Below, piece by piece: positions 24,901 through 63,115 of a stretch of 64,000 nt of DNA (the first letter of the stretch is position 1; each line of letters opens with the position of its first letter). Source of the stretch: Picocystis sp. L7 (lineage: Eukaryota > Chlorophyta > Picocystophyceae > Picocystales > Picocystaceae); assembly GCA_020975725.1 (NCBI GenBank), contig QXJR01000005.1:558001-622000 (forward strand), given 5' to 3'. Below the pieces are notes generated by a model, which saw only the letters and a list, made by a program, of their open reading frames with translations, was not told where the DNA came from and ran no database searches. A program made the translations under genes and the position numbers.

Positions 24901-25167
24901 TCTTTGGTGTGAGAGAGAAGGGACGATTCCGAGTGTCGTTCTCTCGACTCGAGTCCATTCCATGGGTCTTTGGTGTGAAAGGGAAGGGACGATTCCGAGT
25001 GTCGTTCTCTCGAGTCCAATCCATTCCATGGGTCTTTGGTGTGAGAGAAGGGACAAGAGTTGGTAGTCTTGTTCTCTCGAGTCAAGTTTACTCCATAGGT
25101 CGTAGGTGAGAGAAGCGACAAGACGTGGTAGTATGGGATCCTGGAGTCAAGTCCATTACGTGAGTCT
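18905..25167. repeat. minisatellite/satellite array, 66-bp unit, about 94 copies
   Basis: Head-to-tail units of 66 bp, each with GTCTTTGGTGTGA, a GGGAAGGGAC-type stretch, and TTCTCTCGA followed by CCATTCCATG. Three main unit types differ in the middle: one with CATTTGTGGTCTC, one with GATTCCGAGTGTC plus CGACTCGAG, one with GATTCGGAGTCTC. They commonly follow each other as a trimer of about 198 bp. Rare variants recur at multiples of 66: CCATAGG at about 20540, 21728 and 23246 (18 and 23 units apart), ATTGCATGG at 19941 and 21195 (19 units). The outermost units at both ends are diverged, the core is homogeneous. Core unit length never leaves the multiple of three, so five of six frames stay open for thousands of bases. 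I read these frames as by-products. Confidence 0.95.
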
Positions 25168-29883: not shown

Positions 29884-32800
29884 TCACATCTGTCGTGCAC
29901 CAAGGTTCCGCACCAACTCATTGAACCTTTCGGGTCTCAATACCTTTGTCAAGTAGTCTGCCAGCATGTTTTCTAAAGGGCAGTACTTGTATACCATCTC
30001 ACCTCTCACTCCACGCTCTCTGACAAAATGATTTCTCACATGAATATGCTTTGTCCTGCTCACACAATTCAAATCCTTGGCCATATGAAGCGCGGGCTGG
30101 TTATCACAATATATGGGTACTGGTTGTGATGCTTTTCCAAGTAATTCTGCAAGCATTGTTCTGAGCCAAAGTGCCTTTTTCACACATTCTGCAAGTGTCA
30201 TATATTCAGCTTCTGCAGTACTTGTGGCCACTGTGGATTGTAGTTGACTTCTCCAATCAATTATGCTTCCATTCACCATGAACAGATATCCTGTTCTCGA
30301 TCGCCGTGTCTCTTTGTCTGTCGCAAAATAGGCGTCGCAATATCCTTCCAATGCTATTTCACTTGGGCCACTCTGCTTCGAATCTCCAAGAACAATTCCA
30401 TGACCTTTTGTTCCCTTGGGATAACGTAGCACTCCTTTTGCTACTGACGAGTGTTTCTTGCTTGGCTTACTCATGTGTCTTGAAAGAACTGCTGCGGCAT
30501 GTCCAAGATCCGGTGGTACCGTCGTGGATAGGTAGAGTAGCTGTCCAACCAATTGCTGATAGCTTGACACAATTTCTGGATCACATACTTGCTCTGGATC
30601 GCTCACGTCCTCACATATGGGTATCTTCTTCTCTTTAGCTTCACTCATTCCATACGCCTCTACCATTCTCTCAACCTTAGATGGTTCGCTGAGGTGTAAT
30701 ATTCTTTTGCTTCGGTCTCGTTTGACTTGCATTCCACAAAAGGTGTCAATCTCACCCTTCGTTCCAACTTTGAATCTCTCGCATATTTTCTTGACTAATT
30801 CTTGCATAATATCTTGGCAACTTGATGCCAATAGTATGTCGTCCACGTAAACGCACACAAAACAAACTTCGTCTTGTTTCTTGCATATGAGCAAAGTTTC
30901 ATCCACACTTACGCATCGGCATTCCAAATCATTTGACAAGAATGATATGAGCTCCTTGTTCCATTCTCTTGGCGCTTGTTTAAGTCCATAAAGACTCTTC
31001 TTAAGTTTGTAGACATTTCCTGGTTCTTCCTCGATGCCTTCCGGAATGTCCAAGTATATCTCTTCTCTGAGATTTGCATGGAGAAAGGCTGCCTTTATAT
31101 CTAGTTGCTGTATGTCGTAGTCTTTTATCGCTGCCACTGTCAAGAATAGGCGTACTGCTGGCTTCGAGACAATCGGAGAAAAAATATCCGTGTAGTCTAT
31201 GCCTTCACGCTGCTGATAGCCTTTCACAACTAACCTTGCCTTGTACCTTTCCACGTTCCCAAGTCCGTCTCTTTTCACCTTGAAAATCCACTTCGTTTGC
31301 AACGGTTTGCTACCTTGGGGCAACCTTGAAACTTCCCATGTTTCATTTTCCAATAGTGCTCGTTTCTCGTCTTCAATTGCTTCTTTCCACATGGACTTCT
31401 CGGGCCGTTCCATTGCTTCATGATAACCTGAAAATTCATCGGGTAGAATCGTGGCTTTAGCATTAAGTCCCTTGCTTGCCATGTGTTTGTAGTCCAAGGT
31501 TTTCCTCTCTCTCAAGTTGTATACGCTTGTTGGCTCGTTCATTGCTTCATCTTTATCTGCTTCATCATTGTCGTCGTCGATTGCTTGACTTTGATCTACC
31601 TCAGTCTCTCTCTGAGGATCCAAGCTTTCATCCATTTGTTGAACGGTCTCGCTATCCATAGTAGTCTTCACAGTTGCTTCACTTGGTGTTGTTGCTGGAT
31701 AACTACCTTCGTCATGACTTGGTTGAGAAATGATGTTGGGTTCCATGAGTAGCTCGGGCATCGTTCCACTCTTTAGGCTATCATCCATCCTGCCCGCTTG
31801 GTCTTCTAGGAACACCGAAGTGCGCGATCTCAACACATTCATCTTCACAAGAAAACGATAAGTAGTGCTGTTAGCATATCCAACAAAGATTGCGGGTTCC
31901 GCCCGTGGTCCAAGTTTCCCAACTTGCCGGTCTCGTGGTACATGCACGAGAGCTTTGCATCCCCAACGTTTGAGTTGTTTGTAGTTGGGATGCTTTCTAG
32001 CCAATGGCTCTAGTGAGCTCTTGCTTTGTTTTCCATTTATGTTGCATGGCTTCAAGTTTCTCACGTAGTTGACGGTTCGCATTGCTTCTCCCCAAAGGAC
32101 GGTGGGTAGCTGGGTGTCTTCAAGCAAAGCTCTAGTCCCTTCCATCAACGTGCGATTGAGTCGTTCCACTTGACCATTTTGTTGTGGCTCATATCCTGCT
32201 GTCGTCTCGTGATTGATCCCTTTCTCGCTCAACCGAATTCTCATATTCTCTTGTAGAAACTCTTTGCCACAATCGGTCCGTATGCATTTCACATGTTCTC
32301 CGGACAATTGTTCCAACCGTGTGATTGCTTGCTTTGCTGCATCTGTAGCTTGACCCTTGTTTGGGAGTAGTGTGACAAGACTGAACTTCGTTGCGGCGTC
32401 CACCGCTACAAGTGCATATGTTTGTCCTCCAACGGCCTCCGGTGTGACTGTTCCGATCAAATCCATTGAGATCCTGTCCAATGGTTTCTTCAATGTCTCA
32501 TCATGTGCATACGCTTTACGGCTTAGTTTTCCTTTGACACATGCTTCACACGATTTCATGTCATCCGGCAATCCAATTTGTTTCAATGTGTTGGAACTTG
32601 CATGGCACAATCGTTTATGCCATAGATCCGCCTCCGCTTGTAAGGCATGCACACCGTCCGTGTGTGCGTGCAACTCCACGATGTCTTGATCTCGTTGAAG
32701 TACGCAAGTTCCATCACTCCTCATAACTATGTTAGCTCCCATTTGGCGACCCATCTTTGTCGCGGAGATCAAGTTGTATGCCATGTTTGGAACATACAAC

Positions 32801-33819
32801 ACATTTGAAAGTCGAACCTCCAACTTTCCAATCTTGAGCGTCACATTTCCTTTACTTGCAATGGCCGTGCTCCGACCATCGGCCACCATAATTAGACCGC
32901 TTGCTTGTTTCAAAGTTCCCTCGTCGAACTTCTGTAGGTCTCCTGTCATATGATCCGACGCTCCACTGTCGAGTATCCAATCCCTTATGCTTGGACTGCT
33001 TTCCATTGTTACTCGCATACTCCGACCTTGCTTGTCGGTCTCGGTACCTTGTCGGCAATAACGGGCCATATGTCCTTGCTTACCGCACTTATAGCACTTG
33101 CCATTGAATTTCTTTTTCTTTTCCTCGGCATGTCCAACTCTCGCAACTAGTGGTTGGCTTCCTGTCTCACTTCGATCGTGGTTCACATTTGCTTGTTCCA
33201 TCACCACGTCGTCACCTTGCATGTTGTACTCTTCGTTTACGAGTATCATCTTCAATCGATCCAATGTTGGCATTTCACCGCTTGCATCGATCGTTGTCTT
33301 CACGAGATTGTAATCTCTCGGTAACCCATTGAGTGTTGTGGCGACTATGTCGGCTTCCGATATCTTCTCCTCACTTTCTCGGAGTTCGCTCGCTAGCGAG
33401 AGTGCCCTTGTGTAGTATTGCATCACGCTCTCGCTCGGCATTTTCTTCAATGTCCGATACTTCCCAAGTATGCGCATTGATGTTGCAGCATTTTGTATCC
33501 CATAGCTTGCATGTAGGCGGTCCCAAACATCCTTGGTAGAGAGCATCGTGTCTCGTTGCAATAGCGAGCGTTCTTCTTTGTTGACTCGCCGAAGCATTGC
33601 TGCTCGTACCATATTTGACTTTTGTTTGGTTTCGGCATCCATTTCATCATGCGACATTGCATTGTCCAGGACATCGTCGAGCCCTACTTCTTCCATTGCT
33701 AGGAGCACAGACCCTTTCCACAAGTTCCAATTTCCTTGTAAAAGGATTGGAATGTCACCCTTGTCTATCTTGTATCGGGCCATGATGTGTTCTTCCATTG
33801 TGTAGGTGTCTTCGGGCAA
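29884..33819 (-). CDS. Copia Gag-Pol polyprotein
   Basis: One frame of 1311 codons. In order: UBN2-type Gag, CCHC zinc knuckle CYKCGKQGHMARYC, aspartic protease ILDSGASDHM, GAG-pre-integrase (LWHKRLCHAS), integrase core with DLIG, IRTDCGKEF and the following Glu region, Copia reverse transcriptase (WIFKVKRDGLG, QLDIKAAFLHA, catalytic YVDDILLAS), and RNase H with STAEAEYM and the ADYLTK end. The order integrase before reverse transcriptase defines Copia/Pseudoviridae. It looks whole. Confidence 0.95.
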   Translation of the reverse strand: MPEDTYTMEEHIMARYKIDKGDIPILLQGNWNLWKGSVLLAMEEVGLDDVLDNAMSHDEMDAETKQKSNMVRAAMLRRVNKEERSLLQRDTMLSTKDVWDRLHASYGIQNAATSMRILGKYRTLKKMPSESVMQYYTRALSLASELRESEEKISEADIVATTLNGLPRDYNLVKTTIDASGEMPTLDRLKMILVNEEYNMQGDDVVMEQANVNHDRSETGSQPLVARVGHAEEKKKKFNGKCYKCGKQGHMARYCRQGTETDKQGRSMRVTMESSPSIRDWILDSGASDHMTGDLQKFDEGTLKQASGLIMVADGRSTAIASKGNVTLKIGKLEVRLSNVLYVPNMAYNLISATKMGRQMGANIVMRSDGTCVLQRDQDIVELHAHTDGVHALQAEADLWHKRLCHASSNTLKQIGLPDDMKSCEACVKGKLSRKAYAHDETLKKPLDRISMDLIGTVTPEAVGGQTYALVAVDAATKFSLVTLLPNKGQATDAAKQAITRLEQLSGEHVKCIRTDCGKEFLQENMRIRLSEKGINHETTAGYEPQQNGQVERLNRTLMEGTRALLEDTQLPTVLWGEAMRTVNYVRNLKPCNINGKQSKSSLEPLARKHPNYKQLKRWGCKALVHVPRDRQVGKLGPRAEPAIFVGYANSTTYRFLVKMNVLRSRTSVFLEDQAGRMDDSLKSGTMPELLMEPNIISQPSHDEGSYPATTPSEATVKTTMDSETVQQMDESLDPQRETEVDQSQAIDDDNDEADKDEAMNEPTSVYNLRERKTLDYKHMASKGLNAKATILPDEFSGYHEAMERPEKSMWKEAIEDEKRALLENETWEVSRLPQGSKPLQTKWIFKVKRDGLGNVERYKARLVVKGYQQREGIDYTDIFSPIVSKPAVRLFLTVAAIKDYDIQQLDIKAAFLHANLREEIYLDIPEGIEEEPGNVYKLKKSLYGLKQAPREWNKELISFLSNDLECRCVSVDETLLICKKQDEVCFVCVYVDDILLASSCQDIMQELVKKICERFKVGTKGEIDTFCGMQVKRDRSKRILHLSEPSKVERMVEAYGMSEAKEKKIPICEDVSDPEQVCDPEIVSSYQQLVGQLLYLSTTVPPDLGHAAAVLSRHMSKPSKKHSSVAKGVLRYPKGTKGHGIVLGDSKQSGPSEIALEGYCDAYFATDKETRRSRTGYLFMVNGSIIDWRSQLQSTVATSTAEAEYMTLAECVKKALWLRTMLAELLGKASQPVPIYCDNQPALHMAKDLNCVSRTKHIHVRNHFVRERGVRGEMVYKYCPLENMLADYLTKVLRPERFNELVRNLGARQM

Positions 33820-34177
33820 CCAAGGCTCTTAACCTGTTGAAAAACATTTATAGCTCAGTTGACCTACACTGCCTTTGGTTGAGTGAGTCTCTCGCACTTC
33901 TCCTCTAGGAGGTGCCCCTTCTCCTAAGTGGACCTTCGCTCTTTGGGTCTCGCTTGGAGGTGATGCTCCCGCGCCCGTTTGGTGTGGGATGCCTGACTTT
34001 GCAAAGACTCAACTGATCAATTACATGCATGCTTGCTCCCTTATATAGGGTGGATGTATCTGCGCTACATTACATCGTCCCCCCAACCGTGCAGGACTAT
34101 TCGTACAATCACAACACTATCACAACTTAGTATCTCCCCTTTTAGAAGGTGGGTACCTTCCTTCTAGACCCACTCCC

Positions 34178-34735
34178 TGTAGCACAGCCGTGCTTGGACA
34201 GGGCCCCTTCGAGCCCCTGACCCTGCCTCAGTAGGGTCGCGACCTTCCAGCATACTTGCTCAAAGGGAATGGGGATAAAGACCCCCATTCAACGGGAGAC
34301 GCCCCGGTACATCTTGATACCACAGTAAGGGACTATCGGACAGGGTACCCGGGGCCTCCCGACTGGGAACCCGGGACTTTCGATAGAAGATCCTCACCAT
34401 ATCTACCACCCCGGGGCGAGGTCTCGAGAAGGGACTATCGAGACTGCCTGGACGACCGAACTGGCTCGTACAACCGTCGGATCCGCACGTGGGACCCACG
34501 TGCGCGCCCCAGAGCGTGTCTACCCGTCGAGGGCAGGGCGTGACAGGCTGTCAGCCGCCTTCCTAAACCCGAAGGCTGGGGGGCGAAAGGGGTACTCCTA
34601 AGCGAGACCCCAACATGTAAAATCACTTTCCACTTGCGCCGACTTGGTGTGCGCCACCAGCCTCGACGCCTCCCAACCCTCTCTTCGAAGTCGCCTCCGT
34701 CTTCTCGTAAGTCCTGAGCATCGCGTAACGCAACA
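34178..34735 (+). repeat. Gypsy (methyltransferase family) 5' LTR
   Basis: 558 bp with TG...CA ends. Contains a 10-bp-arm palindrome with a one-base centre at 34484-34504, which places two CACGTG boxes back to back. The base sequence following the LTR does not start with the TGG usual for a tRNA primer site. Confidence 0.92.
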
Positions 34736-34756
34736 GTGTCTAAGCTTTACGAAAGC

Positions 34757-36013
34757 ATGAGTGACGGCGAAGAAGAGAACCCGTTGGGAACTGCCACTCG
34801 CATGCAACGATTGCGAGAAGAGCTCACACGAGAGCAACAGGCCCGTGCCACGCTTACAGAGCAAGTGCGCCTCCTGGAAAGTCAGCTACAACGTCAACGA
34901 ACTCAAACTACCCCTTTTGAGGACGTGCCTCAAGATACCAAGGAGGACGGGACGGAAGACGCCCGTTCCTCCGAAGAAGATCAGCCTCTCCTAGAAGAAG
35001 AAAATGCTCTCCCGCCGGTCGTTGTTCAACCGCTGAATGAGGAAGGTCTTCAGAGCCTTACAAAGCTCTACAAGTCCATGGGGGAATCGCAACGCTTGCA
35101 AGGCGTCTCGTTGGCGCGACCTTCCAACTTCTCAGGCTTGGAGGTTGTTGAAGACCCGTACGCCCTTACCCATTGGTACCGCGAGGTATCTTGCTGGGTA
35201 CAGGGCTACGCAAAGGACCCCATTCAGCAGGTGGTTCTGGCCTTGCAGACTTTGAAAGGTACAGCCAGAATCATGGTTGACAACATCATTATGTCAGACC
35301 CCAAGAGAGTGAGTGATTTGATATCACTCTTCAAGATCCTCAAGGAAACCTTCCAGCGCCGAGACCCAGGTCCTGACGCGTGGAAAGAGTTTCAGAGAGC
35401 GCGACTCTGCACAAACAGAGAGAATGTTATCGGCTTCTTGAATCGCTTGTTGTTGCTGAGTTTCGTAATCAACATGAGCGAGGATCCTACATGCCCGACG
35501 GTCAGTGAGAGCGACATCGCGACTAAACTGCGGATGGGACTGCCTTACAACATCAGCAACCAGCTAGAACAACACATGCAACTGATGGTTGATGTGGGCA
35601 GCGTTCCGGACATTTCTCCCTGGGGCATCGCTGCCACCGCCCTCAAGGTTGAGGCACAGGAACGCGAAAAGTCACGGATGACCAATCGTCAACCCCGGCC
35701 CGCTGAAAATAAGGTCAACCGGACCCTAATTACAGCTGCTGTCCATGCCTTACCGGAACGCTCGCCTACGGAGGACCGTCCAAAGTGGAGCACCAGCGGC
35801 CGCGCAGCAAAAAGGTTCCGAGACCTACCAGAATCTCTCCAGAAAAGGATCGTGGAGCTCCAAAAGGAACTCCAGGACTTGCCGTTGGGAGCTACACTGA
35901 CCCCGGACCAGCAGCAGCGATGCGCCAGCAATTCTCTGTGTATCAGGTGCCGACGTTACGGTCACGATGCCCGGAACTGCCAGCAAACCAAGCCTATGAT
36001 ACCAAAAAACTGA
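34757..36013 (+). CDS. Gypsy Gag
   Basis: About 418 residues from the first ATG, 21 bases after the LTR. The N-terminus is acidic and then forms a coiled coil (MQRLREELTREQQARATLTE). The centre is a Retrotrans_gag capsid domain (VEDPYALTHWYREVSCWV, LFKILKETFQRRDP). The C-terminus holds the CCHC zinc knuckle CIRCRRYGHDARNC. It looks whole. It would form the particle that packages the element RNA. Confidence 0.85.
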   Translation: MSDGEEENPLGTATRMQRLREELTREQQARATLTEQVRLLESQLQRQRTQTTPFEDVPQDTKEDGTEDARSSEEDQPLLEEENALPPVVVQPLNEEGLQSLTKLYKSMGESQRLQGVSLARPSNFSGLEVVEDPYALTHWYREVSCWVQGYAKDPIQQVVLALQTLKGTARIMVDNIIMSDPKRVSDLISLFKILKETFQRRDPGPDAWKEFQRARLCTNRENVIGFLNRLLLLSFVINMSEDPTCPTVSESDIATKLRMGLPYNISNQLEQHMQLMVDVGSVPDISPWGIAATALKVEAQEREKSRMTNRQPRPAENKVNRTLITAAVHALPERSPTEDRPKWSTSGRAAKRFRDLPESLQKRIVELQKELQDLPLGATLTPDQQQRCASNSLCIRCRRYGHDARNCQQTKPMIPKN

Positions 36014-36199
36014 ATTGGCTCCTCCTGACAGAAGAGGCTGTCAGGATGGAGCCAGGAGAGGCATCATCAATAGACGCATGGTCAGACCTTTCTTGCCTCA
36101 ACAACCTTTATCCTGACCAGGTGGTGCCTCTACGAGCGTCGCCGAATCCTCGACCCCGCTGTGAGTTTCTTACTGCGGACGGCTATATAGGACCTGCAG

Positions 36200-38160
36200 G
36201 GTCCAGTGAACTTAAAACCCAGGCGTACGTAGATACCCTGGCCAGCAACTCCTTTCTCAGCAGAGAATACTTTGAGGAATTACAACGCAGTGGTCCCCTA
36301 CGCGTCACATGGAGACCTACAAGACAATACTTCAATTTCAGCCTGGCCGTGGGAACGGCAGTGCATCGAGCCCATGTCATTGAAGCCCAGTTGACCATTG
36401 GAACCTTCCAGGTGCAACACGAATTCGGGTTAGCCCCCATTGAATCCTTTGATTGCATTCTTGGTGTAGACTTTTGCCACAAGTTCTTAGTGCAGCTGAA
36501 TTGGCAGGAACAGATCATGGAGTTGAGGGACCATCAAGGAAAAACTCACCGAGTTCAGGGCGACAATGCCTTTATCAAGTCTCGCAAGCTTGATTTGATT
36601 GTCCCTGCTTCAGAGGTCCCTGACGCTGTTACGTCAGACGGATGCCTCTTGCTGATGGTCCAGCCGCTGGACACCACATATGAGCTCACCGCTGAAGAAC
36701 TGGATACCGCTGCGTTCCGCAGTCGCCTCAGCAATGCCTGCAACCTCACTTCTGATGAGGAACAACGCTTACAGAAATTACTGGAGAAACACCAGAAGTG
36801 TTTCCAGAAACGCACGAATATACCGGCAGAACGAACTCCAGGCGAGTCCTTTAAAATTCATGTGGAACCTGGAACACAGCCGGTGCATCGCAACTACTAT
36901 CGGCTCTCGCCCCAGCAGCAGGAAGCCTTGCGAGAACTACTTACAGAATATGTGGATGCGGGGAAGATGGATATATGCGCCGGGTCCAGTTGGGGTGCCC
37001 CGGTACTCCTCATCCCCAAGAAGGATGGAGGTTGGAGAGTCGTTTTCGACTACCGCATCCTTAATGCAGCAACCATTAAGGACCGATACCCTCTCCCCAG
37101 AATTGACGATCATCTGCAGAATTTAGGGCAGTCCTGCATATTTTCCTCCGTAGATGCGCTCGATGGATTTCACCAGATTCCTATGGACCGCAACGACATA
37201 GACAAGACAGCAGTGGTAACGCCTTTTGGGAGCTACGTTTGGAAGGTCATGCCTATGGGACTGGCCAACGCACCGGCCATGTTCCAGCGAATGATGAATC
37301 GCATCTTTGGTAACTTGCCCTTCCTGAAAGTATATATGGATGACATATTGATCCATTCTGCTGATAAATTGGAGCACTTCCAACATTTGGAACAGTTCCT
37401 ACAGGTGTGCCAGGATAACGACGTACGACTCAAGGAGTCCAAATGCCACTTTTTCCAGCAGACCTTGGAATGGGTTGGATTCAGGATCCAAAGCGGACAG
37501 CTCAGCTGTGCTGACCATCTGGTAGAGCGCATCCGTAAATTCCCCCGACCAGTTACGCACAAACAGAACCTGGCTTTCCTGGGACTATGCCAGTTCTATA
37601 TGCGCTTCGTGCAGAATTATGCGGAACTCGCAGCGCCCCTCACCGAGCTTACGCGCAAACAGTACAAGCATGACTTTCAACACTATTGGAAGGATCAGCA
37701 TGAGAGGTCCTTTAAGGATTTAGTACAGCATCTTACCGCAGGACCTGTTCTGCAGTTGTTTGATGAAGATCGATCCATACGTGTGGAAACCGATGCATCA
37801 GACCTGGGCATGGGTGCTGTCCTGCTACAAGAATCCACTCCTAACAATTGGCTACCAGTGGAATATTGGTCCAAGAAATTCAACTCCGCACAGCGTAATT
37901 ACCATCCTGCTGAAAAGGAAACCTGTGCGATAGTATATGCACTCCACCATTGGCGCCACCTGCTGTTTGGACAACCTTTCACCGTATTGACAGACAACAA
38001 AGCCAGCATGTATCTACAAACCAAGTCTGCGGAACAGCTGAGCCCGCGCGATCAACGATGGGTTGCGAAGTTGGCTTACTTTGCTCCCTTTGCAGTAGAA
38101 TACCGGCCTGGACCTGAAAACATAGCAGCAGACTACCTATCGCGACAAGGCTTAGGGACT
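36200..38160 (+). other. Gypsy protease, reverse transcriptase and RNase H part of pol
   Basis: Protease region with AYVDT near 36.23 kb. Reverse transcriptase from about 36.87 kb with WGAPVLLIPKKDGGWR, FSSVDALDGFHQI, VMPMGLANAPAMFQR and the catalytic YMDD at about 37333. RNase H from about 37.78 kb with VETDASDLGMGAV and TVLTDNKA. Typical Ty3/Gypsy order. Positions are approximate domain limits. Confidence 0.9.
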
Positions 38161-38164
38161 GGTT

Positions 38165-39060
38165 ACCCGCTCATCAGAATATTGGATCTTTGTGCAGGCA
38201 TGGGGACTGTTCTGCGCGCCTTGTGGCATCTGCTTCCCGCAGGGTCCCCAATACAGATCGATTACATCGCTGTGGAATTAGAACAAGATGCCCGCCAGGT
38301 CATTGAACGGGTATTCGCAGATATACACCTGGACCGACCAGGGCTGTTCACCCGTACCGATATTTTTCGATATGGGAACGATGTCCGATCTCTGGTTCAC
38401 CGACGCAAACTGCCAAAAATCGATGTGCTAATAGCAGGAGTGCCCTGCCAACCCTTCTCAAAAGCAAACACATCAAAACAGCACCCTAGTTACGGATTAC
38501 GAGATGAAAGAGAGCTGTTTACCACAGTACACAACATACATTGCCGCCTGGGTTCACCTGACTACATTATTGAGTGCACCCCTTTTGCTGGTCATCTACA
38601 AGAAGACTTCCTACAAATTGCAGAAATGTTTGGGGAACCGACACTACATGACCTGTCCTTGTTTTGCCCTCAGAAACGCATGAGGTACTGTTGGACTTCC
38701 CTTCCAACCATTTCCCAGGTCCATCATATTCCTGGGTTACCTATGACCTGGGCTGAATGCCTCGAGGACGGCGCTTCACCGCCCACAGATTCCCTCAAGC
38801 AGCCAATACAGAAGTGTCCCACTTTGATGGCATCCGTTAATTCACACAGCGATCGCAGTAAGGCAACCTGGGTGTACGATTGCCAGGGGACTGCCCGTCC
38901 ATTGAATATATCAGAAAAGGAAAGACTTACAGGCATGGAGGTAGGGGACACCGCTGCCTTGAAGGTAACGGAGGCCGCTCGACACCGGATGTGCGGTAAT
39001 GCTTTCCCCGTAGCCTGGATAGCCCATCTGCTGGATTTGCTTATCATGAAGCACGCAGGA
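38165..39060 (+). other. DNA cytosine-5 methyltransferase domain inside Gypsy pol
   Basis: About 300 codons between RNase H and integrase, in the pol frame. Visible C5-methyltransferase motifs in order: motif I ILDLCAGMGTV (AdoMet binding) at about 38180, a following AVELEQDA strand end, motif IV VPCQPFSKAN (catalytic Cys) at about 38440, motif VIII-like QKRMRYCW at about 38670, an ERLTGME stretch, and motif X RMCGNAFPVAWI at about 38985. The family methylates cytosine in DNA. Known retroelement-borne methyltransferases of charophytes and dinoflagellates show that such domains can be functional. Here I infer, not show, that the element could methylate its own or host DNA. The spacing between motifs IV and X leaves room for a target-recognition region. 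Confidence 0.88.
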
Positions 39061-39349
39061 ACGCTTAGACCGCTAGCTAGCCGCAGTCTCGCAGAGACTG
39101 TGTGTGTTCAAAGCAAGCCAACTGCTGTGCTGTCCGCGCTTACGGAACCGCAACCCGCATCATACATACAGCGCTTGCGTTCAGCGGCCCAAAAGGACTC
39201 AGAATATACTGCGAAACTGGAAGCCCCCCCTCCATACCTTCGGGCCGTCGATGGATTGTTGTTTCATAAACCAGTACCAAACCAGCAGGGATCCTATGAA
39301 GGACCTGCTGTTGTACTGGTGCCAGAGGACCGTGCACTGCGACAAGACC

Positions 39350-41007
39350 TGCTCCACCTGGTACACGATCAATCACACTTTGGAGCTCAGCGCACTTATA
39401 TGACTGCCAAAAGACATTTTGCATGGAAGGGGATGAAGGGACACGTGCAGGCCTTTGTCTCACAATGCCCCACCTGTCAACTCCAGAAACCAGGCAATAC
39501 CACATCCTAACAGCCTCTGTTCCCAGAAACAAGGTTCTACCCATATGCATTTCACACAGTGGTTTTGGATGTGGTGGAGGGCCTGCCCCTCACCTCTAAA
39601 GGGCACAATGGAGTCCTAACCATAGTGGACAGATTCACAAAATATGCTATTTACCTTCCCATACACACTTCATGGAGCGCATTCCGCCAAGCCCAATGCA
39701 TAATGTATGCACTTGTGTACAAGTTTCATACTCCACAGCGCATACACACAGATAACGGGCCAGCATACCGGGAGCTGTTTCGGGCCTTTTGCGCAGCACT
39801 CGGAACCCAGCATGTTACAGGTACTCCTTACCACTCACAGTCGCAAGGTGGAGCAGAGCGACAGCATCGCACTTTGCTCCAACAGTTGCGCGTAACTTGT
39901 GATGACCGCAGAAATTGGGATGATTACTTACAGGCTGCAGCACACGCGTACAACGACAACGCGCACGCGGTCACCAGAGTAGCCCCGTTTGTCGCCTTGT
40001 ACGGATGCCATTCCAGACTTCCTTGGCACCTACAACTCTTGACCCTATCAGAACCTAGTGTTTCTCAGCTGGTCTCCACTCATGACGAGAGGATCCATTC
40101 CTTCCTGGAAAAACAACGAGCAGTGTACAAGCAGATCCTTAAACACCTATGCGCACAGGCCGAAAAGATGCAAGCCCAACTTGCCAACCTGCCTGCCCGA
40201 ACATTCAAAGTAGGAGATCAGGTCAAGGTACAGTATGGTCTGAAAGGAGCAACGGACAAACACAAATTGGATCCTTACTATGTGGGGCCATTTACGATTG
40301 CGGAGGATCTGGGCAATGGGGCATACAAATTACATATCCCCCCAGAGTCACCCTACTCGGACAGATTCAATGCAGACAGACTAGCCTTGTGGATTGATTC
40401 AGACTTGACGCTGTTTCCTGCTCCACACAATATTGGAAACTCGCCAGCCCGCTTGCCACCAGATTGCCGGGTGGAACCACCCATCGCCATTCGTCGATAT
40501 CTGCTGAGAGATTATCGCTACTTCCCGCAGAAACCGGTCCGTTACTGGGTACAGACAGACTCTGCGGAAACGCCCTACGTATGGGTGGACGAGTCCAGCG
40601 ACTTGTTGGATGAATTCCTCAGTCTAGAGGAAAATAATGGTTGTATCCCAGAAAGGGGTATCAGTGATGAAAACAAAGAGGCAGTGAAAACACACAAACA
40701 GCAGATCTACTTACAATACCCGAGCCCAATACTTGTTAATACCTCGACCTCCGCCCGATTACCACTGCAAACCCGAAAACGGCCAGCGTTCAAGCCGCCG
40801 CAGACACTACTGAATGCTATTGTGCAGCAGCTTTTCCACATATCCGAGACTAATCAAGCATACTACCAGGGCCTGGTTATCAAGGTGAAGAAACAAACCT
40901 GCACCATACAGTGGACGGATGGGCATAAAAGCCAACACACGCATGCAGAAGTTCGTTCGATGCTTTATGACCCAGTGAGTCAGGTCTATGATTTCCTCAG
41001 CCAGTAA
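39350..41007 (+). other. Gypsy integrase and C-terminal modules
   Basis: Zinc-binding HHCC part (HLVHDQSHFGAQRT with CPTCQ) near 39.36-39.49 kb. Integrase catalytic core about 39.56-39.9 kb with LDVVEGLP, HTDNGPAYREL and GGAERQHRT. The DNA-binding SH3-like part is near 40.2-40.35 kb (VGDQVKVQYGLKG, YVGPFTI). Beyond it two further modules follow, one with YLLRDYRYFP and WVDESSDLLDEF, one with YYQGLVIKVKKQTCTIQWTDG that resembles a chromo/Tudor barrel. Both modules recur in the second Gypsy at 48458-57344, showing shared ancestry. Confidence 0.87.
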
Positions 41008-41041
41008 TGTGTGTCAATGGATACGACAGAAGCCAGGAGAG

Positions 41042-41599
41042 TGTAGCACAGCCGTGCTTGGACAGGGCCCCTTCGAGCCCCTGACCCTGCCTCAGTAGGG
41101 TCGCGACCTTCCAGCATACTTGCTCAAAGGGAATGGGGATAAAGACCCCCATTCAACGGGAGACGCCCCGGTACATCTTGATACCACAGTAAGGGACTAT
41201 CGGACAGGGTACCCGGGGCCTCCCGACTGGGAACCCGGGACTTTCGATAGAAGATCCTCACCATATCTACCACCCCGGGGCGAGGTCTCGAGAAGGGACT
41301 ATCGAGACTGCCTGGACGACCGAACTGGCTCGTACAACCGTCGGATCCGCACGTGGGACCCACGTGCGCGCCCCAGAGCGTGTCTACCCGTCGAGGGCAG
41401 GGCGTGACAGGCTGTCAGCCGCCTTCCCAAACCCGAAGGCTGGGGGGCGAAAGGGGTACTCCTAAGCGAGACCCCAACATGTAAAATCACTTTCCACTTG
41501 CGCCGACTTGGTGTGCGCCACCAGCCTCGACGCCTCCCAACCCTCTCTTCGAAGTCGCCTCCGTCTTCTCGTAAGTCCTGAGCATCGCGTAACGCAACA
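41042..41599 (+). repeat. Gypsy (methyltransferase family) 3' LTR
   Basis: Second copy of the 558-bp LTR, differing from the first at about one base. A purine-rich tract (GAAGCCAGGAGAG) sits immediately before it, as expected for plus-strand priming. Confidence 0.92.
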
Positions 41600-41811
41600 T
41601 CCCTTGACCGGGCTGGTCTTACATCATCCTGCTATAGCCAGTACGGGTTTACCGATCAAGTGTTTAAACTTCTCATGGTTGGAAACTTGTCACATTTTAA
41701 CAGATCTTCCCAAACGAGGGTGCATCTCGGAGGGGGGGAAATTGAGTCGAGGGGGGGGTGCAAAATTCAGTCGCAACCCCCCTCCTGCCGTGCCTTCGTC
41801 TGTCCATGGGT

Positions 41812-43764: not shown

Positions 43765-45843
43765 TCAAGTTCCTTGGAAGTTATGTTCTAGTATCCCTTC
43801 TTTGAAGCGCTTCTTGCGTTGGAGGTTGGCTGCCTCTCTTGCTTTTTGCTTCCTGGTACGCTCTTGCTCATAAGTCAGTTTTAAACGATCGAATTTGGAA
43901 TGCTTCAGCAGTCTTGCGTTGATTGGAATCTGAAGCTCATTGTTGTGGACTCTTCGAGCTAGGGAATGCTTGCAAACACCTTTATCTTGAAATGTGTAAC
44001 AAGTACAAGTTGTACCAAGCATCACCCAAGCACTTGTGTGTTCAAAGAACTTTTGTAGTGTTTCATTAGGATGAGGCAACAGTCCTTTCTCACAATAGCT
44101 GCTTGCCTCTTCAAACAACAACTTGTGCATTTGTAAGTCCATCTCTTCCACCAATTCTTTGCTTGCATCTAATGAGTGGATCATCAATTCCTTGAATTGT
44201 GTAGATGTTCGCTGAGTCGCCAATTTCATGGTGGATTCTATTGTTCTTTTCGATGGGAACAATGCAAGGTCCTTCACTTCTTGTCGGAGAAACCAATCCG
44301 TGCACATCATGAATTGGTCTACTTCTTCCCATAATTTGAGTGGCAATGATGACTCATTTGTGTGACCACACCGATACTCTCTTTCTTTTTCTCTCACCAA
44401 AGATGAGATTGCTTTCTTTAAAGGCACAACTGATTTATGGAGGTCGATTCTTCGTTGCGTACATCTGCTAGGCATGTGTACCTTCTTCAAGGTGTTGTTG
44501 TTACTTTCGTGACCTTGGTTGCTAACTGGATACCCTTCGGGTGCGTCACATCTAGCCCAATTCTTGAATGGCCCTCCATAAGTTGATTTCCACCACCTCA
44601 TGAAGTCCTTGTGCTTCTCAAACTCTCTCTCAAACATTTCCATCAACACCTCTCGAACTTCTTTACTTGGTGAGTATGAGATTTGCCTCACTACTCCGGC
44701 AATGTAAACTCCGATGGCACTTGGTACTTGGTACTTCTTGAATGCTTGTTGCAAGTTGCCATCGACTCGACTCAAGTGTGCATAACAATCTTGTTGATGC
44801 CATTTGCATCCCTTCGAATTGAAGAAAGAGTGCACACCTGAGTGGAGTCCTGAACCTGCATCTTTCAACACATAAACACCATCAAAAAAAGCACTCGCAT
44901 CTTCTCCCAACAAGTCCCAAAATGAATTCAAGTGGAAGGTGGTTGTAATTGTACTTTCTCCCGGCACAATGCTATAAAGTATTGGGAGCCAATGCCCTTG
45001 TGGATTTGTGAAACCACTTGCCATTAAGATATGCTCATCCCCTGTAATTATCTTGAATGTCGCATCAATCGTAATTTGCCTAGTTCCACCCCTTTCCATG
45101 CATTCTTTCAACCATGTGACCATTAATGGGCATGAAAAACTGATCATCAATGTTTTCAACGTATCTTCATCTGAGAATTCGTCGACATTTTCATGATTGA
45201 CCACAAAGCACTCGTCCTTGGCATAGCTTTTGTTTTCCATGTGGACATCCTCTTTGATGCTCTTGATAAAATCTCCGAGCTTGTTGCTGCTTGCAAGTAG
45301 CGTCCGCTTGTAATTCAAAAAGTTCTTCACTTGCTTCTTTGTGGCTCCTTCCAACTCGAATCCCGAACTCTCTAGGTGGCAAATAATTTTCGGGACAATC
45401 AAATCGCTTTCCACAAATTTCAATAGCTCTAGTTTGATTTTACGAGAGAGACCGTCTTTTCTACCTTTTGGAATCTTCTCGATTTCATGATTGTGCGCAC
45501 CTTTCGAGAGCAATACAAGGTTCCCTTGGGGTTCTCTTTGCATCAATGCTTGAGCTTTGCATCCGCATACACACGATGCATTGCATACCCATCTTCCCAA
45601 TTTGGCGACTCCATCCAAACCAAGGATTGGGTACTTGGCCTTTGCAGCACCCTTTGAGCTTTGCTTGACCCACTTGGCCAAGCTATCCCCTTGCAACTTG
45701 GAAAGCTCTACTGTCAACCATTGTTGTTCCTGATCACAAAGGTGAAGGTGCCCCTGCCCATGGAAAATTGGACACGTTGCCCTTCTCACCCACTCGGATG
45801 GCAACACTGTCTCCGGGGTTGGACATGCCACGGATGTATCCAT
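43765..45843 (-). CDS. MULE transposase
   Basis: 692 residues from the ATG at 45843; the frame continues upstream only from a TTG, and copy 1 starts at the same Met. Domains in order: a Cys/His region ending LLSKGAHNHEIEK (FLYWCH/WRKY-like DNA-binding finger); the Mutator DDE nuclease with the first Asp in ITIDATFKI, GHWLPILYSIVPGES, the second Asp in VLKDAGSGLHSG, and a HQQDCYAHLSR segment just before the all-helical insertion; then a C-terminal SWIM finger, CTCYTFQDKGVCKHSL (CxC...CxH). It would bind the long terminal repeats and cut the element out of DNA in the nucleus. Length and order match plant and protist MULE transposases. No break seen. Confidence 0.93.
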   Translation of the reverse strand: MDTSVACPTPETVLPSEWVRRATCPIFHGQGHLHLCDQEQQWLTVELSKLQGDSLAKWVKQSSKGAAKAKYPILGLDGVAKLGRWVCNASCVCGCKAQALMQREPQGNLVLLSKGAHNHEIEKIPKGRKDGLSRKIKLELLKFVESDLIVPKIICHLESSGFELEGATKKQVKNFLNYKRTLLASSNKLGDFIKSIKEDVHMENKSYAKDECFVVNHENVDEFSDEDTLKTLMISFSCPLMVTWLKECMERGGTRQITIDATFKIITGDEHILMASGFTNPQGHWLPILYSIVPGESTITTTFHLNSFWDLLGEDASAFFDGVYVLKDAGSGLHSGVHSFFNSKGCKWHQQDCYAHLSRVDGNLQQAFKKYQVPSAIGVYIAGVVRQISYSPSKEVREVLMEMFEREFEKHKDFMRWWKSTYGGPFKNWARCDAPEGYPVSNQGHESNNNTLKKVHMPSRCTQRRIDLHKSVVPLKKAISSLVREKEREYRCGHTNESSLPLKLWEEVDQFMMCTDWFLRQEVKDLALFPSKRTIESTMKLATQRTSTQFKELMIHSLDASKELVEEMDLQMHKLLFEEASSYCEKGLLPHPNETLQKFFEHTSAWVMLGTTCTCYTFQDKGVCKHSLARRVHNNELQIPINARLLKHSKFDRLKLTYEQERTRKQKAREAANLQRKKRFKEGILEHNFQGT

Positions 45844-46114
45844 CCTTCTGAAATCGCAATGCCCGGTCAACACTTCTAGCCCCTTTGTCAAAATGGAAGA
45901 GCCCCGAAATCAACCTGTCGACCCCCCTATGCAAACTCGCGACCTTGCTCGTACAGCAACCGTGGCGACTTGGTTTGTACGACCCACTTCAGGACCCCCG
46001 TTTTGAACAACCTTTTTGGCGGGAAAGAATCGCTGCCGATGTAGGTACCCACGATGTACTTTGACTCGACGACTCCTTCGGACAGTTGCGCTACCTTACC
46101 CAGAGTCGGCACGT

Positions 46115-48457: not shown

Positions 48458-49221
48458 TGTGGCGCTTGCGCGCCCACCTCCTTTTCCTGTGGCGCGAAGA
48501 CGACGAGGGTGGTGGCGTCGGCGTGCGTTCGCGCTCGTTCGCTCGTGCGTTCGTGTCGCCGCGGTGCTCGAGACCGTTGGGCGGAACGTTGAGGAACGTT
48601 GTTGTTGTTTTCGTTCCCCTCCGCCGCAATTAATATTACATCTTAACTCCATTGGGGAATCCGCCCGTGGCTAAGCCACGTATTTATCCGGTTCATCGGC
48701 CACAGAGCCCTTATTAGAAAGGGGGACAAACCGGTCCCTATTCGGGTTAGTCCTGGCCCTGCATCCGCCTAGGGACATGGCTAAGGAGGACGTCCCAGTG
48801 AGGGGAAGGCAAGGGCCTTCCTTGGGCATCCGAGAATATTCCCTCATGCCTCCCTAGTACCTCCTGGTAGGTAGCGAGATGCTGCAAGCGAGGGAACCAG
48901 GGAGCCTTTGGCCAATGCGGAGTGATCATGGTCACAAGGGCTCTAGGTTCGGCCTCCAGCTTGCTTATCACGGAGTCAATTAGGCAACAGGGTGGGTGTG
49001 CCCATAGGTTGCCAAGACTAGCCCATTCTTGGGCGAGAGCATTGGTCTCCCGTGTAAAGAAGGCCGGACATTGGGTATTGTTTGGCGAGGCAAACAAGTC
49101 CCAAGTGAATGGCCCGAATATAATTGAGAACCTCTCAAAAGCCTCACGATTGAGTGCATATTCCTCATCGTCGAAGGACAACCTCGGCAAGACAGGTGTC
49201 TCGAGAGGGCTGGGCGCAACA
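48458..49221 (-). repeat. second Gypsy 3' LTR (encodes polyprotein C-terminus)
   Basis: 764 bp. The last about 158 codons of the polyprotein lie in it. The purine tract that should prime plus-strand synthesis (GGTCCGGGAGGG on the minus strand, next to 49221) is therefore inside coding sequence. A CGTGGCTAAGCCACG hairpin lies near 48667-48681. Confidence 0.9.
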
Positions 49222-52200
49222 CCCTCCCGGACCACCATTAAGCGCAACTCAGCCCGATCGTCGAGTGGCTCTGGCGAGACGAGGGAAGCTTGGCCGTACA
49301 CGGCCGCCACAGGATCAAATAGGATCGTGTGTGCGTCATCGGGACGGTAGGAGGAAGTAGCCCCGTCCGTCCACCGGATGACGTAAGCAGCGGGAGAAGA
49401 TTTCGCCGCTTTTCGAAAGCGTTCCACAAGGCCAGTCCAAAACTCTAGGCGAGTTGAGCCGTCCATGAGCTCGAGCAAGAACCTTGCTTGCACGACTTGC
49501 CCAACCAAGTTCGTACTTGGCGGTTTCGCAAAGCGCGGTTTCCTTAGGCTAGTGTATGGCAGAGCGTACGGCCACGTATCCTTTAGGATGGGCCTCTTCT
49601 GGTGATAAAATTTGGACTTGTAGCGAGACACGCGACTCTTGTTACGTGCGGTGATGCCTTGCTCGGGGAAATGCCCGAGGAGTTCCTCGATCTCACAAAC
49701 GTGGTCGATGAGATCCGACGTTTCCTCTACGAACCCGCGATGTTCGTGAAGAGGGGCATCGGCGCTACAAGCAAATTGGACATAGTACCTAGGTGGAAAA
49801 GTGGTCCAATCACGTATGTAGAAGCGCTCTACCTGGAAACGAGTTTCCTCTGATCCATTTGGGAGAGGAACCGTTTGAGGTTCAGGAGTAAGTTCGCGAT
49901 GGGGGAACTTTGAATGGTCGCTCTCATGCCAGGGATGCAGTCGTTCGATATTGACTGTGGCGGAATGTCGAGTGCCGTCGGGTAGAACCAAGCGGTAAGC
50001 TCCCTTTGGTAGCACCTCCCCAATGGTGTACGGCCCTACAAAGTAGCTCTCGAGCTTTCCTTTGTCCCTGGAGGACTTCAGACCGCGTTGCAGTTTGACT
50101 TTATCCCCGACGCGAAAGCGTCGAACCTGCCTTTGGCGGTTCAATCTATCTTCAACTTGTTTTTGATAGAGGGCGTGTCGTTTTTGCACTTGAGCATAAA
50201 GCTCTCGGCGAGCGTCAAACAGCGAATGGAGTCGCTTGCACGCAGGGTCTGCATTCTCTCTCAGGAGGGAATATGTCCACGGCAAACTGGCGTTTGTACC
50301 GAAGAGGACGTAATGAGGAGAGTAGCCAGTAACTCTATGCACCGATGTATTGTAGGAGAAGGACGCTGTTTGAAGCAGCTCGTCCCACTCTACATCTGGC
50401 CGTGATGTTGCCAATGCCCGAAGGGTGGATAAAAGGGTGCGGTGCTGCACCTCCACTCCTCCTTGTGTCTGGCTATGGTAAGGCGCGCCGCTTTTATGCT
50501 TGGCCCCGAGCTCGATCAGGAATTGATCAAAGAGCTCGCGAAATCGGGGCCCGTTGTCGGTGAGGACAACTCGCGGACTTCCGAACTGATGGATTACTCG
50601 GTCCATGAGCACCTTGGCAACGTCGTGCGTTGTCCAATCAGTGTGCATCGGGAAGTAGAGAGCGTACTTGGAAAACCGGCATGTGACGGTTAGTACCGCG
50701 TTGTGACCTCTCGAAGTGGCGGGAAGCCCGACAACTTCGTCTACCGCAATCGTGTGGAAAGGGTAGGGGAAGATCTCTTGCATGTGGACGAGATGCTTCG
50801 CGGGTCGATTGCTCGGCTTGAGGAGCTGGCAACGAGGACAAGTACGGACAAAGTCGATAATGTACGACTTCATACCTTGCCAAACAAAATGTTGTCGGCA
50901 TTGCTCATAGGTGCGTTGAGCGCCAAAGTGGGCATCCGCGTGGACACGGTCCACAAGTCGTTGTCGCACGGCAACATCATTCGGCACCACCAGGCAAACA
51001 CGATCCGTCTCGGGATCGATGCGCCACACGAGGTTGTCACGAACTTCGTGCTTCGTCGGTGGTGAAGCTACAAGAGCCTGATAAGCTTTGTCTTTCTCAC
51101 CTGCTCGTTGCACCAATGTATACAAATCTTCCTCCTGGGGGTCAACCGATGGAATCTCAAGGGAACCACCCATAGCTCGAAGAGCTGGCCCGGGAGGCGG
51201 CTGAACGAGTGCTGGGATGGTGAGCAAAGGCATCGACCGCCGGAGGAGGTCTGCTAAGGTGATCAGCCTGAGATCAGTACCTGGGTTGACTTGCAACGTG
51301 GTGCGCACGGTGAGACCGGACGCAAGCCTATAGGACTTGGTAGCACGGGCGCACGTTCCATTATACGTGGCCGAATGAATCACATGGGTAGAGGCAGGCA
51401 ACCTACTAAGGAGTCGGTCGCAAGCGGGAAGGTCAAGGTGCTTGTCATCAGCGAGGAGCACTACGTGAGCCTGCGGGAGCCGCTTGCGGTTGGCTACCTC
51501 CGCGAGGGATGTTGTCTCAAAGCGGAGGGGACGGCTTGTACGCCATCGAACGGGGGCCTTAAGGCGTGCCCGATCATATTGCAGCATCCAACGTTCGCGA
51601 GCAGCTTTCGATCGAAAGGTACCAATGACCGCTAGATCGAGGGAGAGCATAGGCTCGATCAACAAGATCTCTTCCAAGGAGGGAATCAAGTCTTCCGCGG
51701 GTGGCCCAACATGGAGGACACGAAAGACTTGGCCCCTGTCCCAATCGGTGCGACTGAGAGCGTCCGCTCCAGGGTTGGCGACGCCTTGACGGTACTGGAC
51801 CTCGAAAGGGGTAAACTCAGCCAAGGCGTCTAGCCAGCGGATCTCCCGAGAGGAGAGTTGATCAGCATTCTTCGTTTGCAAGTATTTGGACGCAGTGTTG
51901 TCGGTTAAGACAGTGAAAGAGCGTCCTTGCAGAAGATGCTTCCACTTGACGAGACTTTGCAAAATAGCAAGAGTCTCTTGCTCAGCTGTGGAGTAGTTGC
52001 GTTGGGCATCATTGAATTTTCGCCCATAGTAAGCAACCGGATGCCACTTGCCATCCTCATGTAGTTGAGAAAGGATCGCGCCGGTAGCGATCTTACTAGC
52101 ATCCGTCTCTACGCGCGTCTCTCTGTTCGGATCGTATTGGACGAGGACGGGCTCTTGAACTAGAGCAGCCTTGAGGCGCTGGAACGCGTCCTCTTGAACC

Positions 52201-55200
52201 TCAGTCCAGGAGCCAACGAAGTCTCCTTTAAACGCCTTTCTATTGATGTCCGAAAGAGGAGCAGCAAGAGTGGGGAAGTCCTTAATGAAGGAGGAGTAGT
52301 AATTGCACAAGCCTAAGAAGCTTTGATTCTCCTTGATGCTAGTTGGCCGGGGAAAGTTCTCAATTTTCTCCACGAGACGCTTTTGCATCATCACTCGGCC
52401 ATCGCCAATATGGAATCCGGCGTAGTCGAGGGCTTTCTTAAAGAGCGCCGTCTTCTCCTTGGCGAGCACGATATGCTCAGCCTTGCAGCGTTGGAAGAAA
52501 GCCTCGAGGTGATCCAAGTGATCAGCCTCTGACCCAGAGTGGATGAGGATATCATCCATGTACGCCTTGGTGTTCGTTAAGGGCGACACGATGCGGTTCA
52601 TCATGCGCTGGAAGATAGAGGGGGCGTTTGCCAGGCCCATCGGCATGACACGCCAAACGAATTGACCAAACGGCGTCACGCATGCTGTTTTGTATTGATC
52701 CTCGGGGGCCACAAGCATATTGTAAAACCCGTCTTTCACGTCAAAGGACGAGAAGAACTTCGAGGTGCTCAAGTCTAGGAGCAAGTCATCGATCAAAGGA
52801 AGAGGATATTTGTCCTTGATCGTGAGGTTGTTCAGCATGCGGTAATCAAAGACAATACGGTATCGCCCATCCTTCTTCGGTATGAGGAGTACCGGGGCTC
52901 CAAATGGCGATCCGGGCGAATGCGCCATCTTGCCGTCTTTGAGTAACTGGTCGATGAGCTCTCGACATGCCTTGGTCTTCTCCGGGGAGAGACGGATAGG
53001 TGGCCGACTTTTGGGACCGTCTTTTGCGACGTCCAAGGGTATGCGACACACCTCTCCCGACACTCGTTCGGGAGGCAAGGCAAAGCTTTCCTCTTTGCCT
53101 CGGAAGACCGATGCATATTTATGGAGGAGCTTGTCGAGCCGTTTCTTGCCTTGGGAGGTGAGAGAGTGATCTTCGGAGAGAGTAAGGCTAGCTATCCTTT
53201 TTCCGAGATCATCCTCCTCATGTTCCAAGTCGGGTAGACGTTGGATGAGCACGAAAAGGCTACCTTCACGAGCCTTGCGGCTGGAACGTAGGATTTGGGC
53301 GGCTTCTTGCATAGAGCAGAATGCATCCATCCCATGCTTCGAGGCGAAGTTCGAATCGCCGCGAAGCTCATGCTTTCTCCCTTGATGGCGAAACGTCAGA
53401 ACGTTCCTTGGGAACTCTAAGCTCGCGTGGAACGAGACCAGGAAGTCCATCCCCAACACCACGTCATAAGTATTGAGGGGACACACCGCAAAAGGCCTCT
53501 CGACCTTCTCCTTGTCGATGGTGAAGGTCAAGTTCACGACCGGTGCCTTGTGCAACGTCTCACCAACGCCTAAGCGGTACGTCAGATTTTCTCGCTTGGG
53601 GGTGGATGTACGACCACTTGGGTCGGCCTGGCACACACGATCGTGGAAGCGACAGCTTATGAAGTTGTGGGTAGCACCCGTATCGACAAAGGCTTTTGCC
53701 GATAACCCTGCTATGGAAAGCATCACGACCATGCTTGTGCATAGTCCCGAGCTAAACTCACATAGCGTACCGATGGTAGACGGGAGGTTCGCGCTCAACG
53801 GAGTCGAGTGAAGGGGAGAGTGAAACTCTCCCGGACTTAGTGGGAACTCTGGGGGTGCGTCCACCTTGGGAGTTTCCACCGGGACCGAAGTGTGCAATGG
53901 AGGAGGGCAAGGATAGCGGTTTTCACAAGCACAATTATCCAAAGTCCTATTACATAGTGCACACTTGGGTGCTTCACGATATGTCGCACGGCAAGGGGGA
54001 CTTACATGCGTCCTTTTCCTTTGCCTTGGCACAGACATAGTGAGCAACTCACCGTCAGTCATCAGGTTCGAGTCGTCGAAGGCCTCGTGGGTCTCCTCGG
54101 AAACTTCGCTGCTCCACAACCTACCTTTTTGTGCGGAGGTGCCTCGGCGGGTTTTCTTCTTGCCGCCGGGCTTGAAAGCTCGCTGATGCGGTGCCATCGG
54201 AGCTTGAGGAGGCGCTCCTTGGGGCCTTGTCCAACCTTGGGCGGCTTGGAGCTGCCCGAAGGTCAATGCCGAGGCTGGGATTTGCACCATGGCCTCCTGT
54301 GGCAACCCTTGGGGAGCCGGGGACGGAGCGTAACGAGGTTGGCCGCTTCCAGACCCTGCCATTCGCGCATAGGTGGGACCCTTTGTGAGGGGTGGCATGA
54401 GAGGAGATTTTCCTTTGCCTTTACCACCTCCCTGATGCCCTTGGGGCTCGGAGGGGAGTTGCCCTTCGAAATGTTTCACCTCTCGGAGAAGTTGTTCCCC
54501 ATTGACAATCTCCTGTCCCACTCTCTGAGCGTGACGGATATGATTGTCGAGGAGCCTCCCCAACTGTGGTCGGAGTTTGGCTCGAAACATAATCAAGAAG
54601 AATTGCTCCCAGAACCTCCTTTGGCCATCCGGGGTGCGCAAGGCACGGAGGAATGGATCGGTGGATTCCATGGCCCCTTCAACTTCCTTGCGCATGCGCA
54701 AGTAGAAGTCCTCCGCACTCTCGCCTTGGCGTTGGTAGCCACGGGCGAGTTCAAGGACACACTCCCATCCGACATCGTCAGGGTAGTAGTGTCGTCGCAA
54801 CACACTTGAAAATTGTTTCCAAGTAGTTGGCGGATGGGCTTGAGTGGCCAATTTATAGAACCTTTGTGCGCTCCCTATGAGGTAGCGTGCGGCAAGCGCA
54901 ACTTGCGCTTCTTCCTTGTCCGAATGACCGGAGGTGAAGTCTCGGACCGATTGAAGCCAATCCCTCAAGGAATGGCGGTCGAGTTTCGTACCGTCGAAGG
55001 TCGGAGGCAAGGGGAGTGTGGCGCGCGTGATCCTTTCGGGATCAAGGGCGGTCGCCGTAAGGGGGCGCATCTCGTGCGGCTCCTCCACCACTCCAGCACG
55101 AACCAAGGCACGTTCAATGAACTTGTCGCGTGGTCCTTGGCTCTCCTCATGGAGAGGATCTACCAAAAGATCGAGCGCGGATTCTTGGAATGCCGATCGA

Positions 55201-63060: not shown

Positions 63061-63115
63061 AGGGGGACTACTATGTCCCCCTCTCTCTTTCTCCCTCACC
63101 GCCTCTCACTAACGG

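Follow-up and report, generated by a model that had tools for sequence, protein, structure and literature searches.

Why should a genomic parasite carry an enzyme for the very mark that its hosts use in silencing? The reason has been open since 2018, and the question is raised anew by a 64,000-nucleotide stretch of Picocystis sp. L7 (contig QXJR01000005.1, positions 558,001 to 622,000; hereafter the window). It contains a Ty3/Gypsy-type long terminal repeat (LTR) retrotransposon whose Pol includes a full DNA methyltransferase (DNMT) of the DNMT3, or de novo, type between RNase H and integrase. This element, here called DNMT-Gypsy, comes in many copies with open frames and in several divergent lineages, and in one relative the domain has seemingly decayed; the genome around it is compact (20.5 Mb) and has at least five DNMT genes of the host, so that the question becomes open to methylome maps and enzyme assays. 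Its parts, in window positions, are as follows (ORF, open reading frame; aa, amino acids).

34174..34177, no strand: target-site duplication TCCC, 5' side, from repeat and flank comparison
34178..34735, forward: 5' LTR (TGTAGC...GCAACA), 558 bp, 557/558 identical to the 3' LTR
34736..36013, forward: gag-like ORF, 425 aa, overlapping the pol ORF in another frame
35785..39510, forward: pol ORF, first part, with protease-like stretch, reverse transcriptase, RNase H, DNMT and integrase zinc finger (Pfam)
36214..36477, forward: weak gag-asp protease-like stretch (Pfam E 0.0017, below the curated cut-off)
37012..37488, forward: reverse transcriptase RVT_1 (Pfam 2.9e-37)
37687..38082, forward: RNase H (RT_RNaseH_2 / RT_RNaseH; Pfam)
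38167..39060, forward: DNMT3-type C5-cytosine methyltransferase domain (motifs, Pfam, sequence and fold matches)
39328..39492, forward: integrase zinc-binding domain Integrase_H2C2 (Pfam 1.2e-17)
39559..41007, forward: pol ORF, second part, with integrase core rve and SH3_Tf2-1 (Pfam)
41042..41599, forward: 3' LTR, 557/558 identical to the 5' LTR
41600..41603, no strand: target-site duplication TCCC, 3' side, from repeat and flank comparison

The element thus spans 34178-41599 on the forward strand, with direct LTRs that begin with TG and end with CA and a 4-bp duplication on both flanks, as expected of Ty3/Gypsy elements. An earlier note, made from the sequence alone, had described a Gypsy element with near-identical LTRs and a DNMT between RNase H and integrase, and both points are borne out: the LTRs differ at one of 558 positions (34178-34735 vs 41042-41599), and Pfam places RVT_1, RNase H, DNA_methylase and Integrase_H2C2 in this order within one ORF. 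Apart from the inserted DNMT, the order protease, reverse transcriptase (RT), RNase H and integrase is that of Ty3/Gypsy Pol, with a weak protease match (E 0.0017). No Pfam family matched the gag-like ORF at E ≤ 0.01. The pol of the window copy consists of two ORFs in one frame, split by the stop codon that ends the first at 39510, between integrase zinc finger and integrase core; despite its near-identical LTRs, the copy looks interrupted in its integrase.

What kind of methyltransferase is this? The C5 motifs I, IV, VIII-like and X named in the earlier note were all located, in order, in the frame 35785-39510 (start positions: ILDLCAGMGT 38179, PCQPFS 38443, QKRMR 38671, GNAFP 38995), and motif VI, ECT, retains its Glu. 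The domain therefore shows the features of PF00145, i.e., motifs I, IV (Pro-Cys), VI (Glu), VIII (RxR) and X (GN) in one Rossmann-type domain, and matches Pfam DNA_methylase at 3.9e-9 (36.8 bits, cut-off 22). A structure model with a mean pLDDT (predicted local distance difference test) of 93.2 matches DNMT3 over 260 residues; because this model is confident and the genome holds at least 135 matches to the domain at E ≤ 0.001, a chance resemblance can be dismissed. By sequence and by fold alike, DNMT3 is nearest across most of the domain, which we accordingly classify as a DNMT3-type C5-cytosine methyltransferase. Its motifs run from I to X without rearrangement, i.e., the C-terminal motifs do not precede motif I as in DRM, and a Pfam scan of pol found no ADD or PWWP domain. 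Compared with the catalytic domains of DNMT3A and DNMT3B, the element DNMT is 25-27% identical in the two best rows and reads ECT instead of ENV in motif VI, and in its family the R836 column is never Arg and the R882 column mostly not Arg. An NCBIfam search of the domain returned dcm matches only, all sub-threshold. Viral and bacterial origins were also considered and rejected: 32 viral loci reached 23-51% identity, mostly over short stretches, and viral model matches had query-normalised TM scores of at most 0.68, both weaker than DNMT3, and at least 32 GTDB loci gave 25-44% identity, again mostly over short stretches.

Is the DNMT a lasting part of the element? The genome (20,525,659 bases in 30 contigs) was searched in six frames, so that match counts are lower bounds. 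The domain found at least 135 scored matches (E ≤ 0.001, 47-100% identity); the matched stretch is free of stops in 118 and contains stops in 17, and 57 of the 135 combine a stop-free domain with an open frame of 1650 aa or longer, so uninterrupted copies exist. With the divergent member L035 as query, 18 further places raised the count to at least 153 domain matches, and seven places found by PF00145 only, one of which (L083) was inspected, bring it to 160. Among the 136 matches listed for the element RT (at least 66% identity), 123 have a DNMT match downstream, on the same strand and 0.3-1.6 kb from the RT. The domain is therefore a regular part of the clade, and the one-off that the earlier note had allowed for is not what the genome contains.

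The divergence of the domain parallels that of its carrier. Pairwise DNMT and RT-RNase H distances correlate with rho 0.943 over 27 elements (351 pairs) and with rho 0.758 inside the main clade alone (190 pairs); in the most distant element, P0032, the DNMT retains 31% identity and the RT 28%, and catalytic residues are near-invariant down to about 31% identity. We read this pattern as pointing to long common descent of DNMT and RT, rather than repeated or recent capture; the single recent capture that the earlier note had weighed is not seen. Selection was assessed with codon models (IQ-TREE, GY) on 29 loci, leaving out L021, which lies at a contig end, loci whose segment has two or more stops (RT-RNase H 8, DNMT 0, integrase 7) and identical rows. 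Over families, omega (dN/dS) was 0.121 for the DNMT (27 rows), 0.051 for RT-RNase H (20 rows) and 0.100 for integrase (20 rows), and fixing the DNMT omega at 1 was far worse (log-likelihood -6926.6 vs -6466.5, best of four kappa values). The neutral evolution that the earlier note had set against a maintained function is thus not seen, and the element DNMT is under purifying selection.

A special case of capture would be the recent uptake of the present host's own DNMT gene, as published retroelement DNMTs (retro-DNMTs) are regarded as host-derived in PMC5890265. Five host DNMT loci were found: L031 is of DNMT1 type and carries BAH domains, L033 pairs a DNMT with a chromo domain and L034 one with PWWP, L032 is a 415-aa DNMT about as large as DNMT2, and L082 (1137-2342, reverse strand, contig C20) is a DRM with rearranged motif order, which matches 4onq at 7.5e-38 with DRM2 entries next. 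None of the five is among the 135 element-domain matches; the sole DNMT3-class host gene found is the rearranged DRM, whereas the element runs from I to X, although these genes were recovered as six-frame exon matches only and another host DNMT3 may have escaped. Given also the parallel distances over 27 elements, we regard such an uptake as scarcely credible.

The host genes deserve a comment of their own. PWWP-bearing ChloroDNMTs are reported in chlorophytes and charophytes and DRM in streptophytes only (PMC12344493). EukProt has a protein that is 100% identical to L031 (P0058) over the searched region and bears the name of a haptophyte, Pavlova lutheri; this label also stands on 13 of 25 and 2 of 32 hits in two protein searches. 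Among the best 120 of 1805 hits to L031, a metagenome protein (94%) and one Camellia-named record (58%) are followed, as far as relatives bear names, by green algae, for the most part at 64-71%, and then by land plants at ~59-64%. A quick tree, with long-branch warnings, set L031 apart from the rows of trebouxiophytes, chlorophyceans and ulvophyceans and close to land plants and two rows without names. Because its next named relatives are mostly green algae, we consider a haptophyte host improbable and do not accept the Pavlova label, which is likely a mix-up from a mislabelled or mixed culture. A red alga was discarded as well, since the host DNMT set and the DNMT1 hits are green. We conclude from these comparisons that the host appears to be of green-lineage type, outside the core chlorophytes sampled.

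What, then, might the enzyme do for the element? With slightly better than even confidence, we favor self-methylation of the cDNA by the Pol-borne DNMT, to the benefit of the copy's persistence. As part of Gag-Pol, the DNMT would be packaged together with RT and integrase and would there meet the newly made double-stranded cDNA, whose cytosines it would methylate before or at integration, in a context that is not evidently CpG. The methylated copy could then pass as host-like DNA, or could enter chromatin in a state that favors its persistence.

Several observations weigh against this reading. If the element placed 5-methylcytosine on CG in its own copies, these sites would be expected to mutate faster to TG or CA. 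When a site counts as changed if any copy has C>T there (L021, L025 and L028-L030 left out), families A-D show no excess at CG, with 97/1446 CG sites (6.7%) vs 424/6245 other C (6.8%); among the 16 NCN contexts, the four with CG come 4th, 6th, 10th and 11th. Counted by copies, the CG to non-CG ratios are 1.20 in family A, 1.03 in B, 0.86 in C and 1.52 in D (with L028 included in D). The CpG observed/expected ratio of the element, 0.76, lies between the extremes found at four host loci (0.60-0.97) and below the Copia ORF (0.85) and a second, Dam-bearing Gypsy element of the window (Dam-Gypsy, 1.00), in whose copies CG sites show a roughly twofold excess (18/548 CG vs 22/1464 other). Arg836 of DNMT3A reads the CpG guanine. 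In the alignment to DNMT3A, the R836 column is S, T or A in 62/62 ungapped rows of the element family, the R882 column is E in 32/61 rows, and the DNMT domain of L035 scores best against HhaI and not DNMT3. According to PMC5890265, the KnitGypsy-Dnmt3 domain was inactive in yeast, a result that its authors deem inconclusive. The DNMT omega within families (0.345 in A, 0.461 in B, 0.163 in C) stays only moderately under 1, in B weakly so (2dlnL 4.6), and between families dS is saturated, so that the 0.023 obtained with one row per family is not usable as a number. The within-family values, together with the stops in 17 of 135 domain matches, would also suit a captured gene without a role that was kept through recent amplification; omega over families, the near-invariant catalytic residues and the co-occurrence with 123 of 136 listed RTs speak against such a passenger, which we hold to be very improbable.

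Because C>T is not in excess at CG and the R836 column is S, T or A, a CpG target of the element DNMT is not supported by these comparisons. The lack of a footprint is compatible with recently made copies, with repair and with a context other than CG, and it suggests that a retro-DNMT need not leave one. An enzyme that modifies the element's RNA or its tRNA primer, as DNMT2 does tRNA, would account for the absent footprint as well, and action on RNA is discussed for SymbioLINE-Dnmt in PMC5890265. Sequence and fold are nevertheless closest to DNMT3, a DNA enzyme, and not to DNMT2, and we consider an RNA substrate improbable.

A more serious contender, although one we still judge unlikely, is that the DNMT is carried with integrase and methylates host chromatin at or near the insertion site, so that the element settles in, or creates, silent chromatin and limits its own harm. 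The domain lies directly ahead of the integrase zinc finger, the DNMT1-type, chromo-domain, PWWP and DRM genes of the host could maintain such a mark, and self-restraint of spread is among the options named by de Mendoza et al. (PMC5890265). However, this position suits methylation of the cDNA equally, and the copies bear no CG mutational footprint.

A neighboring element of the window is also of interest.

48458-57344, reverse: Dam-Gypsy, near-intact, LTRs 763/764 identical, duplication GAGT, 2617-aa ORF

Dam-Gypsy likewise has a DNA methyltransferase-like domain in its polyprotein, yet of another kind and in another place: a Dam-like adenine-methyltransferase domain (PF05869, 45.3 bits, cut-off 28.1) at the C-terminus of the ORF, inside the LTR, in contrast to the C5 domain between RNase H and integrase of DNMT-Gypsy. 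PF05869 has 101 matches in the genome, many paired ~8.1 kb apart, which fits two LTRs per element, each with the Dam-like domain. The RTs of the two elements are 55% identical, and in an RT tree (midpoint root, long-branch warnings) Dam-Gypsy stands beside the main DNMT clade (82/86), with the DNMT-bearing elements P0021, L035, L037/P0026, P0030/31 and P0032 outside both. The spacer between RNase H and integrase of Dam-Gypsy is colinear with the first half of the DNMT and lacks the PCQ catalytic loop. Aligned to the DNMT with hhalign, it gave a P of 0.0092 and a probability of 4.4%, vs at most 2.5% in 30 shuffles; a plain hidden Markov model search gave E 2.1. This is suggestive only, and it is with modest confidence that we regard the spacer as a possible decayed DNMT. 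A broader scenario, offered tentatively and rated as doubtful, would be that a Gypsy lineage acquired a DNMT3 before the present families split, that cDNA marking outside CpG became a standing replication step, and that the Dam-Gypsy branch let the C5 domain decay and carries the Dam-like domain instead, in which case methylation chemistry may have been swapped within the clade.

Two cases seem to join both domains. A 1586-aa frame on contig C18 was rejected as a dual DNMT and Dam element and is a nested insertion instead: in L071 (C18:151800-160300) the end of a Dam-Gypsy, as its LTR carries it, has landed in frame within a DNMT-Gypsy, leaving a single ORF by chance. L037 (C4:1055000-1061513) and P0026 are divergent DNMT-Gypsy elements with a Dam-like stretch of ~95 aa between protease and RT; that of P0026 matches the Dam of Dam-Gypsy at 43.9 bits in BLAST, and Pfam calls no Dam in P0026. 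This type possibly has two methyltransferase-like domains in one element.

Elsewhere the window holds further repeats and transposon-related frames.

18935-25083: tandem array of about 93 copies of a 66-bp unit, with a 198-bp higher order and 93% matches
29884-33819, reverse: Copia pol ORF, 1311 aa, without stop (RVT_2, gag, integrase)
43765-45891, reverse: 708-aa ORF, MULE/FAR1-like by eye, no Pfam match
62114-63112, forward: DDE_Tnp_4 transposase ORF (Pfam), which we take to be Harbinger-type

The 66-bp array has long open stretches in several frames on both strands and is probably a non-coding satellite.

How does DNMT-Gypsy compare with the retro-DNMTs already known? PMC5890265 describes a Gypsy-type element of Klebsormidium nitens whose Pol includes a Dnmt3, DNMTs in DIRS and LINE elements of Symbiodinium, and DIRS-class retroelements with Dam-like adenine methyltransferases; a Gypsy-borne Dnmt3 is thus already known as a kind. 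In open-licence literature, searched by titles and abstract starts, no other report of a DNMT-bearing Gypsy was found, and two protein searches gave no Klebsormidium-named hit, most hits carrying no name. SymbioDIRS-Dnmt3 and SymbioLINE-Dnmt share with our element a DNMT in a retrotransposon ORF, many copies and purifying selection, and the former also the Dnmt3 class, but they are tyrosine-recombinase DIRS and LINE elements and not Gypsy. SymbioLINE has fewer CGs than DNMT-less elements, whereas here CG sites show no C>T excess; in the same source the depletion is significant for SymbioLINE alone and not for the whole retro-DNMT group. With its DNMT in the coding ORF of many copies and purifying selection on that DNMT, DNMT-Gypsy belongs to this group. 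With KnitGypsy-Dnmt3 it has in common the Gypsy-type domain set, a Pol ORF that includes a DNMT of the Dnmt3 class, conservation of key residues and purifying selection. The repeats of KnitGypsy-Dnmt3 are arranged DIRS-like according to the figure legend, in contrast to the plain direct LTRs and 4-bp duplication here, and K. nitens is described as having fewer copies than Symbiodinium, while the 20.5 Mb searched here contain 153 domain matches or more. New in the present case are the host lineage, the plain LTR structure, the position between RNase H and integrase as read from the sequence, the depth and number of lineages, the absence of a CG footprint and the Dam-bearing relative.
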